A DNA stretch of 64,000 bases from positions 1 to 64,000 of the forward strand of contig JAFQXA010000012.1 of NCBI GenBank assembly GCA_017407205.1, in the 5' to 3' direction. A program made the translations under genes and the position numbers. Under the pieces are notes generated by a model. The model saw nothing but the letters and a program-made list of their open reading frames with translations. It was not told the DNA's origin and ran no database searches. The DNA comes from Clostridia bacterium. GTDB lineage: Bacteria > Bacillota > Clostridia > Christensenellales > CAG-138. This document shows, piece by piece, positions 18,554 through 23,838 of this stretch; within the stretch, counting starts at the first letter, position 1; each line of letters opens with the position of its first letter.

Positions 18554-21500
18554 TTAAAACAAGGAAATCTGATTGGATACAGGTATTCCTTCAAGACATC
18601 CCAAATCCTTAAGTGCTTTTTCAACGGCGCTATTCGCCTTTGTACGCTTCCTGAAGTCTTCAAGCGAAACATACTCGCCACCCATTTTCGCACCTTGCTC
18701 AAGCAATATTGCGGCATTTTCGCCAACACCCGCTATTGACGAGAAGGGAGGTCTTATCGCACCGTCTTCTATAAGGAATTTATTTGCCGAAGACTTATAA
18801 ATATCAATCGGCAAAAGCTCAATGCCTCGTTTGTTCATCTCGAATACTACTTCGAGTATCGGTAATAGGTTCTTTTCCTTTTCTTCCGCATTAAAGCCCT
18901 TTCGTTCAATCTCCTTTATGTTCAAAAGAACTCTCTGTGTGCCGCCCAATGCCTTTTCAACATCGAAAGCATCGGCACGCACAGTAAAGTAAACCGAGTA
19001 AAACTCTTTGGGGAAATGCACCTTGAAGTACGCTATGCGGAAAGCCATCATAACATATGCCGCAGCGTGCGCTCTCGGGAACATATACTGTATCTTCTTG
19101 CATGAATCGACAAACCACTTGGGGATATCCTGCGCCTTCATTGCCTCTTCCATTTCAGAAGTAAGTCCCCTGCCTTTTCGTACATTTTCCATGATTTTAA
19201 ACGACATGGACGGCTCACAGCCATGAAGCATCAGGTAGTTCATTATATCGTCACGGGTACATATTACATCGGACAAAGTGGCAGTACCCGACATGACAAG
19301 ATCCTGAGCGTTGCCTACCCAAACATCCGTACCGTGTGAAAGACCTGAAATTCGTATAAGCTCCTCCATCTTTGTAGGTCTTGTGTCGCAAAGCATTTGC
19401 CTTACAAAGTTTGTACCGAATTCAGGTATTGCAAGACTGCCGACGTCACAATTGATCTCCTCAAGCGTTATGCCCAAGGACTCGGTTGATGAAAAGAGCT
19501 TCATAGTATCAGGATCATCCTGAGGAACCGTCTTGGGGTCAAAGCCCGTTATATCCTGGAGCATACGCAATGCCGTCGGATCGTCATGCCCCAATATATC
19601 AAGCTTAACGAGTCTGTCATCAAGTGCGTGAAAATCAAAATGCGTTGTTATTGTGCTTGCATCTGTTTTATCGGCAGGGTGCTGTATCGGTGTGAATTCC
19701 ATTATATCATTTTCTTTAGGCACAATAACTATACCGCCGGGGTGCTGCCCCGTAGTACGCTTAACACCCAGACAGCCCTGAACAAGCCTGTTCATTTCTG
19801 CCTTTGACATATTTATTCCGTTATCTTCAGCATATGCCTTGACATATCCGAAAACGGTTTTATCCTTAATACCGGAAATAGTACCTGCACGGAAGGCATA
19901 GCCCTCGCCAAACATTTCCTCAGTGAATTTATGAGCGACAGGCTGATATTCGCCCGAGAAGTTCAGGTCTATATCGGGGGTTTTGTCGCCCTTAAAGCCC
20001 AAGAATACTTCGAACGGTATTTCATATCCGTCACGCTTAAGCTCCGTGCCGCACTTTGGGCAATCCTTTTTAGGCATATCCACGCCACAGGCATACTTTG
20101 TTCTGTCAACATCAAAATCGCTGTACTTGCAATTTGGGCAAACATAATGCGGTTGAAGTGCATTTACTTCCGTTATACCTGCCATATGTGCAACAAACGA
20201 TGAGCCAACACTTCCTCGCGAACCTACAAGATAACCGTCCGACAACGACTTATGAACAAGTCTTTGTGCCATGAGATAAAGTGAGCCGTAACCGTTGCCT
20301 ATAATCGAGTTAAGTTCTTTATCGAGTCGCTTCTGAACGACATCGGGAAGCACTTCACCGTATATTTCATGTGCACGTTTTATCGCCCTGCCCGAAAGTT
20401 CTTCCTCTGCACCCTCTATAGTAGGTGCGTATGTGCCCTTTTCCGATAAGAACGGAGGCATTTTTTCGCACATATCTGCAATCAGATTCGGGTTTTTAAC
20501 AACCGCCTCAAAAGCTTCCTCCTCACCTAAATACGAGAACTCCTCAAGCATCTCATCTGTTGTTTTAAAATAAAGAGGTGCCTGCTCCTCAGCATCTTCA
20601 AAGTTGCGTGCGTGCATAAGTATTTTTCTGTATACTGCATCCTCAGGATCCAAAAAATGCACGTCACCCGTTGCCACAAGCATTTTATCTTGTTTTTTTG
20701 CTATGTCTGCAACCTTGCGGTTTAAATCGCGAAGCCCCTCGTCATCTTTTACCATTCCGTTTCTGACAAGGAATTCGTTATTACCTATCGGCTGAATTTC
20801 CATGTAATCATAAAAATCAGCAATATCCATTATTTCATTTTCACTCTTGTTTGCAAGTATTGCACGGAAAAGCTCGCCACTTTCGCAAGCGGAGCCCACT
20901 ATAAGCCCCTCTCTGTGCATCATGAGTAAGCTTCTCGGAATTTGTGGCATCTTCTTAAAATGCTCAAGATGCGAATATGAAACAAGCCTGTAAAGGTTCA
21001 AAAGGCCTTCATGGTTCTTTGCAAGGAGTATTATGTGATAATTACTGCGCTGTCCTTTTACTTTTTCCTTTGGAACACAGTCTGTAAGCGGAAGCGTGTT
21101 TATGCCCTTTTCCCGCATCTTTAAAACAAGACTGTTTGAAAGCTTCTGCAAGCTGTTTACTTTATCGCGTGCAGAAAGCATTTTAAGCTCAACACCGAAT
21201 GCATCACACATATTTTCAAGAGTGACATCTTTAACAAGCCTGTTTAAATAATGCGAAAGCATACCGACGCTTACGCATTCAGTTTCGGGAGCAAGATTGA
21301 ACTTCTTTGCAATATCCGTAAGCTTTTTCATAAGTTCCGTATCAAAAACAACGGGAACCGTGCCCTTTACAAATTCAAAAAGCTTCGTTATTCCTTCTTT
21401 CAATGTAACGGCATCGCTGTTTACACCATCATAACCTGTCTGCTTTTTGAGTGCTTCACTCATCGGCGCACCGGGATCTATGAAAATGTCACAAATTTCT

Positions 21501-22777
21501 TCTCTGCCGTCCGTGCATACTTTCTTTGCGCAGATTGCATATATAAACTCACGGCTGCCCTCGGAGTCACTTGCAATATCAATAAAAGTAAAATCGCCTT
21601 CTTGGCTGATTATTTTACTGTCGGGAAGCAAGTATCCTTCAACACCGAAAATTACTTTTATACCTAAGTCCTTTGTTGCCTTAAAAGCTGCAGGGAATGC
21701 CTGAACAACACCGTGGTCGGTTATCGCAAGTGCTCTATGTCCCCATCTTGCAGCTGTGCTAACAGCATCTTTTACATTAACAAGGGCATCCATCGTTGAC
21801 ATTTGTGTATGCAAGTGAAGCTCAACACGTTTCTTGCCTTCCTCGCCCTTGTCCTCACGCTTTTCCTGATCTGCTGCCATCAATGCATCCGGCATTATGC
21901 AATAATCACGCATATAATTATCAAAGTCGTATTTTCCGCGAACCAGCAACAGCTCGCCCGACTTTTTCATTTTTTCAAGACGCTTTATGAGGTCTTCCTT
22001 GCCCTTATCAAGGAAAATCTTGGTAAGCAGAGTATTGGTCTTATCGCTGACCTGAACCAGAACTATATAGTTGCCATCCCTGCGAACCTTTGTTTCAACC
22101 TCTATAACGCTACCCTTCACGGCAACCGTTTCCGCCTGCTCGTCTATCTCGTTCATACGCGATATGTTAAGGCGTTTTAATTCTTTGCCGTACAAAACCT
22201 CTTTATACGGTTTGGGAGCAGATTCCGCATTTTTAGAAGACTTTTTTTCTTTTGGCACATCCTTGTAAAATTTAGGCATCTGCGCCTCTATCATTTCGGG
22301 ATTAAATGCCACATCCACTATATTTTCATCGACTGCTATCTTGAGACTTATTTTCTGATTAAGCTCATTTTTCAAGAATTTGTTTATGGAAGCAGTACCG
22401 TCACCGCCAAGCGACAGTCCTGCCTGCTTCTTAGACATTTTTACTGTTATGTCACCGTTATCATCAAGCTCATACGCTCCGCAGCTTATGGCATGCTTCA
22501 ATACGGGCGACAAAACCGCCCACATATTTTTTATGTATTCAATAAACGTACCGTCCTGCTTTGCTTGTTCAATCGGAGCTGAAAAATCAATTATAACTTC
22601 AATTTTCACATCATCCAAAAGACATGAAAATTCGCGTTTTATTTCTCCAATCAAAGCATATGGCAAAAGAGTTTTTGCCACAAGATTCACACGTATGATA
22701 TTTTCATCTTTTACAAGGGATACTGATTTTAATTCAATATACTCCCCGTACTTTTCCATCAATTTATTTATTTCCAT
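18554..22777 (-). CDS. polC: DNA polymerase III PolC with a degenerate proofreading domain
   Basis: Replicative polymerase of 1407 residues. Domains: N-terminal region and OB fold (about 1-300); PHP with HLHTQMSTMD (H321, H323) and ITDHGVVQ; an exonuclease insert (about 394-556); the second half of PHP; a Zn site (C880, C883, C906, C909); the polymerase core with PDIDLNFSG (D935, D937) and GVKRTTGQHPGG; and a C-terminal fingers region. In the exonuclease insert the usual DVETTG is DIASDS, the FD of HNASFD is gone, and the HxxxxD site is lost, so proofreading is probably inactive. The start overlaps the ispG stop by one base (TAATG). Last gene of the frr operon. Confidence 0.97.
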   Translation of the reverse strand: MEINKLMEKYGEYIELKSVSLVKDENIIRVNLVAKTLLPYALIGEIKREFSCLLDDVKIEVIIDFSAPIEQAKQDGTFIEYIKNMWAVLSPVLKHAISCGAYELDDNGDITVKMSKKQAGLSLGGDGTASINKFLKNELNQKISLKIAVDENIVDVAFNPEMIEAQMPKFYKDVPKEKKSSKNAESAPKPYKEVLYGKELKRLNISRMNEIDEQAETVAVKGSVIEVETKVRRDGNYIVLVQVSDKTNTLLTKIFLDKGKEDLIKRLEKMKKSGELLLVRGKYDFDNYMRDYCIMPDALMAADQEKREDKGEEGKKRVELHLHTQMSTMDALVNVKDAVSTAARWGHRALAITDHGVVQAFPAAFKATKDLGIKVIFGVEGYLLPDSKIISQEGDFTFIDIASDSEGSREFIYAICAKKVCTDGREEICDIFIDPGAPMSEALKKQTGYDGVNSDAVTLKEGITKLFEFVKGTVPVVFDTELMKKLTDIAKKFNLAPETECVSVGMLSHYLNRLVKDVTLENMCDAFGVELKMLSARDKVNSLQKLSNSLVLKMREKGINTLPLTDCVPKEKVKGQRSNYHIILLAKNHEGLLNLYRLVSYSHLEHFKKMPQIPRSLLMMHREGLIVGSACESGELFRAILANKSENEIMDIADFYDYMEIQPIGNNEFLVRNGMVKDDEGLRDLNRKVADIAKKQDKMLVATGDVHFLDPEDAVYRKILMHARNFEDAEEQAPLYFKTTDEMLEEFSYLGEEEAFEAVVKNPNLIADMCEKMPPFLSEKGTYAPTIEGAEEELSGRAIKRAHEIYGEVLPDVVQKRLDKELNSIIGNGYGSLYLMAQRLVHKSLSDGYLVGSRGSVGSSFVAHMAGITEVNALQPHYVCPNCKYSDFDVDRTKYACGVDMPKKDCPKCGTELKRDGYEIPFEVFLGFKGDKTPDIDLNFSGEYQPVAHKFTEEMFGEGYAFRAGTISGIKDKTVFGYVKAYAEDNGINMSKAEMNRLVQGCLGVKRTTGQHPGGIVIVPKENDIMEFTPIQHPADKTDASTITTHFDFHALDDRLVKLDILGHDDPTALRMLQDITGFDPKTVPQDDPDTMKLFSSTESLGITLEEINCDVGSLAIPEFGTNFVRQMLCDTRPTKMEELIRISGLSHGTDVWVGNAQDLVMSGTATLSDVICTRDDIMNYLMLHGCEPSMSFKIMENVRKGRGLTSEMEEAMKAQDIPKWFVDSCKKIQYMFPRAHAAAYVMMAFRIAYFKVHFPKEFYSVYFTVRADAFDVEKALGGTQRVLLNIKEIERKGFNAEEKEKNLLPILEVVFEMNKRGIELLPIDIYKSSANKFLIEDGAIRPPFSSIAGVGENAAILLEQGAKMGGEYVSLEDFRKRTKANSAVEKALKDLGCLEGIPVSNQISLF

Positions 22778-23838
22778 TACTGTTCTTCCGTATTGATCAA
22801 CAATTTTGCCTGTTGAAAAAACTCTTTTATAACCTCATCCTTCTTGCCTGAGAATACACGCTCGCCTTTTTTGAACATTACTGCTCCGTCAGGTGCAAAG
22901 GCTATGCCTATATCGGCTTCTTTTGCCTCTCCCGGGCCGTTTACAACACAGCCCATTATTGCAACCTTAATATACTTATCATCACAAACAAGCTCGTTTT
23001 TAGCGCGATTTACAACGCTTGTCAAATCAACCTTGCATCTTCCGCAGGTAGGACAGCTTACAACCTCAACACCCGTCTTTAAAATACCTGCTGCACGCAA
23101 AATCATTTTTGCAGCCACGACTTCCTGAACAACATCACCAGTTAACGAAACTCTCAATGTATCACCTATACCGTCCAGCAAGAGTGCACCTATTCCCATG
23201 GATGACTTCACAAGACCTTCGCTGTCACTTCCCGCTTCGGTAACACCGATATGCAAAGGATAGTCAACTTGCTTGTCAAGTAATCTGTAAGCCTTTACCG
23301 TATCGGGAACATTTGATGCTTTAACCGAGAGCACCATATCTTCATACTGAGCTCTTTCAAGTATCCTTACGTGTTTTAAAACGCTTTCAACCATTGCTTC
23401 AGGTGTAGGTCCGCCATACTTTTCAAGCATTTCCTTTTCAACGCTTCCTGAGTTCACACCTATTCTTACGGGAGCCGAATGCATTTTAGCACAGGAAACA
23501 AGCTCTCTGACCTTTGCTTCTGAGCCAATGTTTCCCGGGTTAAAGCGTATTTTATCTGCACCGTTTTCGATAGCGGCAATCGCAAGTCTGTAATCAAAAT
23601 GAACATCTGCTACAAGCGGAATACTGATATTCTGCTTAATTTTGCTTATCGCTTTTGCGCACTCTTTGTCATATACGGATGAACGCACAATATCACAGCC
23701 TGCACTTTCAAGACTTTTAATCTGTGCAACGGTCGCGTCAACATCCCAGGTTTCCGTATTAGTCATTGACTGCACCGTAATGCGTGCACCGCCGCCAATA
23801 AGCTTATCGCCTGCTTTGACTTGCCTTTTACTGCTCAT
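22777..23838 (-). CDS. ispG: 4-hydroxy-3-methylbut-2-enyl diphosphate synthase (IspG)
   Basis: Iron-sulfur enzyme converting MEcPP to HMBPP, the penultimate step of the MEP isoprenoid pathway. The 353-residue length is standard for the short bacterial form. The [4Fe-4S] ligands are C262 and C265 (SCPTC), C297 and E304 (CVVNGPGE), with the same spacing as in E. coli IspG. The N-terminal TIM barrel opens with ARITVQSMTNT. It follows rseP with a one-base gap and ends on the polC start codon, and it shares the operon with dxr, an earlier step of the same pathway. Confidence 0.98.
   Translation of the reverse strand: MSSKRQVKAGDKLIGGGARITVQSMTNTETWDVDATVAQIKSLESAGCDIVRSSVYDKECAKAISKIKQNISIPLVADVHFDYRLAIAAIENGADKIRFNPGNIGSEAKVRELVSCAKMHSAPVRIGVNSGSVEKEMLEKYGGPTPEAMVESVLKHVRILERAQYEDMVLSVKASNVPDTVKAYRLLDKQVDYPLHIGVTEAGSDSEGLVKSSMGIGALLLDGIGDTLRVSLTGDVVQEVVAAKMILRAAGILKTGVEVVSCPTCGRCKVDLTSVVNRAKNELVCDDKYIKVAIMGCVVNGPGEAKEADIGIAFAPDGAVMFKKGERVFSGKKDEVIKEFFQQAKLLINTEEQ

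Follow-up and report, generated by a model that had tools for sequence, protein, structure and literature searches.

A clade of clostridial PolC replicases retains a folded exonuclease domain without its DEDDh active site, beside an intact PHP metal site

What becomes of proofreading when the exonuclease domain built into a chromosomal replicase loses its active site but stays in place? This question is raised by the polC gene of a Clostridia bacterium, found in the window analysed here (a stretch of DNA of 64,000 nucleotides). The usual gene order is dxr-rseP-ispG-polC, and ispG is the upstream neighbour of polC in the window. The features of the locus, in window coordinates, are as follows.

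18554–22777, minus strand: polC (PolC-type DNA polymerase III alpha), 1407 aa, from its open reading frame and profiles
19952–19981, minus strand: polymerase catalytic motif TPDIDLNFSG, intact, with the active-site DxD
20657–21037, minus strand: PHP metal site, second half (H581, C631, D705, H707), all intact
21044–21628, minus strand: exonuclease insert, residues 384–578, DnaQ/RNase H-like fold, DEDDh lost
21149–21187, minus strand: exonuclease motif III (HxxxxD), here LKMLSARDKVNSL, His replaced by L534 and Asp by K539
21320–21358, minus strand: exonuclease motif II (HNxxFD), here VPVVFDTELMKKL, catalytic Asp replaced by L482 in the alignment (or by M483, as a local gap lies beside the catalytic Asp column)
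21572–21580, minus strand: exonuclease motif I (DxE), with D400 retained and A402 in place of Glu
21638–21817, minus strand: PHP metal site, first half (H321, H323, D330, H355, E380), all intact
22777–23838, minus strand: ispG, identified by sequence

The gene product is a full-length PolC by profile (NF001688, 1536 bits against a cut-off of 873; TIGR01405, 1391 bits against a cut-off of 1043), in which Pfam recognises PHP, polymerase, finger and HHH domains, and it ends in the clamp-binding motif QISLF. A preliminary description had stated that the polymerase and PHP landmarks were all there, and the intact TPDIDLNFSG motif and nine PHP ligands bear this out. It had also placed a retained insert at the normal exonuclease position, at residues 394–556 or so; the alignment and the DnaQ-fold model described below confirm its presence, with slightly wider borders that enclose 195 aa between the two PHP halves.

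The Pfam RNase_T profile (PF00929) gave no match to this insert, with the threshold relaxed as far as E≤1. When a profile of 40 dead inserts was aligned with one of 18 intact inserts taken from sister genera, the alignment nevertheless ran unbroken over 192 columns (99.9%, E 6e-36), and the dead-insert profile also matched the solved PolC exonucleases of Thermotoga (2P1J, E 1.5e-17) and Enterococcus faecium (9QPC, E 9e-15). In this alignment four of the five DEDDh residues are gone from the source PolC, as had been claimed at the outset, and only D400 is kept. D400 itself varies among the relatives that share the loss (the dead clade), and the full DEDDh set was found in no member of that clade; the sister genera with an intact site show no variation in the motifs D-ETTG, HNA-FD and HHRA-DDA. 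The AlphaFold model of the insert has a DnaQ fold (pLDDT 94.2, pTM 0.90), with Foldseek matches to 8h2f (E 3e-9) and to E. faecium PolC 9qpc (E 8e-9), and its best match is the E. faecium PolC exonuclease 9qrn (VIA Z 21.3 over 188 residues, rmsd 3.4). A full-chain model (residues 210–1407) likewise has PolC structures as its closest matches (Z 40–43), at an rmsd of ~13 to the E. faecium entries, so that this match is silent on domain placement. An alignment and a structure model had been recommended by the preliminary description; the model gives a DnaQ fold, and in the alignment the DEDDh set is absent except for D400. As judged from sequence and predicted structure, the insert is a pseudo-exonuclease, a domain that still folds but has no DEDDh site.

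The survey of relatives recommended in the same place was carried out by reading PolC in 72 genomes of the source's family. A dead but retained insert of 184–203 aa was found in 43 genomes from 13 genera (g1, g5, g11, g13–g18, g20, g21, g23 and g25), and a complete DEDHD set in 28 genomes from eight genera. The remaining genome, G007 (g6), encodes a PolC (L070) with a single Asp-to-Tyr change in exonuclease motif I (FYIETTG) and the rest intact, which may have arisen by recent inactivation or through an error in sequencing. An independent genome of the source's own genus has the same loss in a PolC that is 69% identical; recurrence in this congener and 41 other genomes rules out chance and assembly error. 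The dead clade is a group of uncultured gut Clostridia, and the neighbours that carry a name are for the most part MAGs of Clostridia from animal guts. When 248 evenly sampled genomes of the order were scored against a dead-insert profile, only dead-clade members exceeded 160 bits and the next PolCs, which are intact, reached at most 126 bits; as the sequences behind this profile came from the clade itself, the result indicates only that there is no further family with the same divergent form.

Loss of the exonuclease is also seen elsewhere. Outside the family, a PolC on MAG contig WRFT01000007.1 (L142) has a second, independent dead but retained exonuclease, with WLKASG at motif I, and its sister L114 has an intact one. 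Other clostridial lineages, in line with published work (PMC3919608), have only a linker of 17–25 aa where the insert was deleted; such PolCs, with PHP intact, lie on several separate branches of the tree (L129, L143, L144, L147, L151–L159 and others). Deletion of this kind is ruled out for the source PolC, whose insert is full length.

A mirror-image arrangement occurs in about ten other families of the order, in proteins of ~510–550 aa that combine a PolC-like N-terminal part, an OB fold, a linker and an intact DEDDh exonuclease. Five of these were located, in coordinates of their own loci.

L193, 465–1997, plus strand: mirror-image protein
L194, 1597–3129, minus strand: mirror-image protein
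L195, 1508–3064, minus strand: mirror-image protein
L196, 442–2097, plus strand: mirror-image protein
L197, 1589–3118, minus strand: mirror-image protein

Their linkers carry QxxLF-like clamp motifs (QENLF, QSNLF, QTDLF, QQDFF, QDDLF), and the genes occupy the place of polC, followed by rimP and nusA in L193, L194, L195 and L197 and preceded by ispG in L194–L197. A search for the PolC polymerase core in the five genomes (93–99% complete) found none and returned DnaE only, and in G141 no more than a weak PHP match. The mirror-image protein is possibly a PolC stripped of its polymerase, now acting as a proofreader in trans.

In a phylogeny of the PolC core, computed with the insert left out, the dead genera group together next to an intact clade that has good support, and the outgroups are intact. 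Support for monophyly of the dead clade is low (SH-like 0.76, UFBoot 37), which leaves room for a single old loss or a small number of them. The loss of DEDDh is old and dates from the base of the 13 genera or close to it; its origin in a single event is weakly supported. That the intact clade regained the full site is not a plausible reading. The DnaE1 tree, in which the G002 row is in the wrong frame, leaves its deep nodes unresolved and speaks neither for nor against a single loss.

The insert is not decaying freely. The median ratio of insert dN to PHP and polymerase core dN over close pairs is 5.8 in the dead clade against 2.0 in the intact clade, so that, relative to the core, evolution of the insert is about threefold faster in the dead clade than in the intact one. 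Its dN/dS is 0.09–0.57, one near-identical pair excepted, and constraint is relaxed to approximately the level of the PolC N-terminal part. The dead inserts have no stops and no deletion, are of near-constant length and retain the fold. The dead insert is thus under relaxed but real purifying selection.

The preliminary description had held that such a replicase would need another exonuclease or have to tolerate a higher mutation rate. Its premise, the loss of DEDDh, stands, but the choice that it offered was incomplete, as the intact PHP site was overlooked. The account that we favour, and regard as probable, is that DEDDh proofreading has been lost and that PHP proofreading and mismatch repair remain. 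The zinc-dependent PHP site of PolC, of DnaE1, or of both would now do the proofreading, with mismatch repair by MutS behind it, and PHP, which has been proposed as the original proofreader, may thereby have resumed its ancestral role. MutS was found in 48 of 50 high-quality genomes of the family; it was not found in the source genome, which is 80% complete, and is present in the congener G001. The source Pol I is present, with no DEDDy domain above the cut-off, and inactivation of Pol I is common in Firmicutes (PMC12926913).

All nine PHP ligands (HHDHEHCDH) are intact in the PolC of every family member read (L070 left out), and the nine are also intact in the DnaE1 of the source genome and of 15 other dead-clade genomes; PolC and DnaE1 of the source both fit the pattern HHDHEH[C/H]DH. 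The ligands are equally intact in the DEDDh-intact sisters, so that their conservation is not an adaptation peculiar to PolCs that have lost DEDDh. A PHP exonuclease requires the full ligand set, but the set by itself does not suffice, and we know of no PolC for which PHP exonuclease activity has been shown. Nine ligands make up the PHP exonuclease, and in mycobacterial DnaE1 this metal site is a proven proofreading exonuclease; Geobacillus (Gka) PolC, in which one ligand is changed, is reported to show no PHP exonuclease activity (PMC5636811). The eighth ligand is Asn in the PolC of Bacilli (Geobacillus, E. faecium), and, given this change and the inactive Geobacillus enzyme, results from Bacilli do not exclude PHP activity here. 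For E. faecium PolC, D431A+E433A is the exonuclease-inactivated form (PMC12592400).

In mycobacterial DnaE1 a PHP loop lines the groove, or primer path, that leads to the PHP site (PMC5636811). The exonuclease insertion point corresponds to this loop, which suggests, without proving, why the dead domain has been kept: it may shape the primer path or, perhaps, brace PHP and thumb. A fuller takeover, in which the Mg-dependent DEDDh site was given up, the zinc PHP site works alone, and the dead DnaQ domain serves non-catalytically in the primer path or at the PHP–thumb interface, would make PolC proofreading DnaE1-like; we put this forward tentatively, as somewhat less probable than its negation.

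Against the favoured account of PHP proofreading and mismatch repair, the strongest rival, though unlikely, is that neither PolC nor DnaE1 proofreads: DnaE1 would do much of the synthesis, PolC would be demoted, base selection and MutS would suffice, and the PHP ligands would be structural. PolC was not found at all in G004, G010 and G016, and in G016, which belongs to the same family (g12, 96% complete), rimP comes immediately after ispG and polC is missing from the interval (L211, contig C35, 5184–6918); G004, moreover, groups with the dead-clade DnaE1 (100% clade). G010, however, belongs to the intact clade, so that loss of PolC is not tied to loss of the exonuclease. The PolC polymerase and PHP sites of the dead clade are fully conserved and core dN/dS is ~0.01–0.09, which gives PolC the look of an essential enzyme. 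No mutator signature was seen in the PolC core: its mean root-to-tip distance is 0.48 in the dead clade and 0.54 in the intact clade, so that exonuclease loss has brought no acceleration.

Less likely still is a standalone DnaQ-like protein that supplies DEDDh activity in trans. The search for such a protein elsewhere in the genome, advised in the preliminary description, found no DnaQ in the source genome, where it could be missed at 80% completeness, and PF00929 proteins of one sort or another are present in many genomes of the dead clade. Yet five dead-clade genomes that are 91–94% complete (G006, G050, G079, G085, G086) have no PF00929 match, and the proteins looked at elsewhere are of different kinds, which we take to be unrelated: Cas2-DEDDh fusions (L082, L083, L085), a BRCT type (L081) and phage-like forms (L088–L090). 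The PF00929 match in the source genome (contig C4, L001) was rejected, as it lies in the coiled coil of a large membrane protein beside an ABC ATPase and is not an exonuclease. By sequence, L082, L083, L085 and L086, from several genomes of the family, join a Cas2-like N-terminal part to an intact DEDDh domain and are of the CRISPR adaptation type.

That the insert is still a nuclease, with a site remodelled around other residues, is very improbable: D400, D479, E481 and D538 are close in sequence to the former motifs, but they are not conserved across the dead clade, in which comparison of the whole insert leaves D3 in the linker as the sole invariant column, and two-metal catalysis by the DnaQ fold needs several acidic residues. 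An artefact of assembly, frameshift or misalignment can be dismissed almost outright, for although the data are from MAGs and the motif II alignment has its local gap, the source open reading frame has no stop or frameshift, 43 genomes concur and the alignment is continuous.

The enzyme itself is known, and what is new is a whole clade of PolCs in which DnaQ is dead and PHP intact; no report of a catalytically dead yet retained PolC exonuclease was found in the open-access literature. The clade is a clear exception with a built-in control in its intact sister genera, and offers a natural experiment that bears directly on whether PolC can proofread through PHP alone, on the mutation-rate cost to a replicase without DEDDh, and on the role of a dead exonuclease domain in a replicase.

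Among known systems, the PolCs with an active DEDDh site (E. faecium, 9QPC/9QRN; Thermotoga exonuclease, 2P1J) resemble the clade in architecture, PHP insertion point and fold, and differ in having the four catalytic residues of five that the clade has lost; relative to the E. faecium and Geobacillus enzymes, with Asn at position eight, the clade keeps all nine PHP ligands. PolCs without the Exo insertion make up ~6% of PolCs, in Clostridia and Negativicutes (PMC3919608). The clostridial ones likewise lack DEDDh proofreading, are paired with DnaE1 and have PHP intact, but their insert is deleted, whereas that of the clade is whole but dead. PolA2/APEX and many Pol I enzymes have vestigial exonuclease domains (PMC12926913), and so, like the clade, keep a folded 3'-5' exonuclease domain without an active site in a polymerase; unlike the clade PolC, they are not chromosomal replicases, and the PolA2 domain carries a clamp motif (QxxLF), of which none was seen in the clade insert. 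The PHP-proofreading DnaE1 of Mycobacterium tuberculosis (PMC5636811) shares with the clade enzyme a complete nine-ligand PHP site and the lack of an active DEDDh site of its own, whereas the clade enzyme is of PolC type, with a putative PHP activity and a dead DnaQ domain set in the loop that forms the PHP groove wall of DnaE1.
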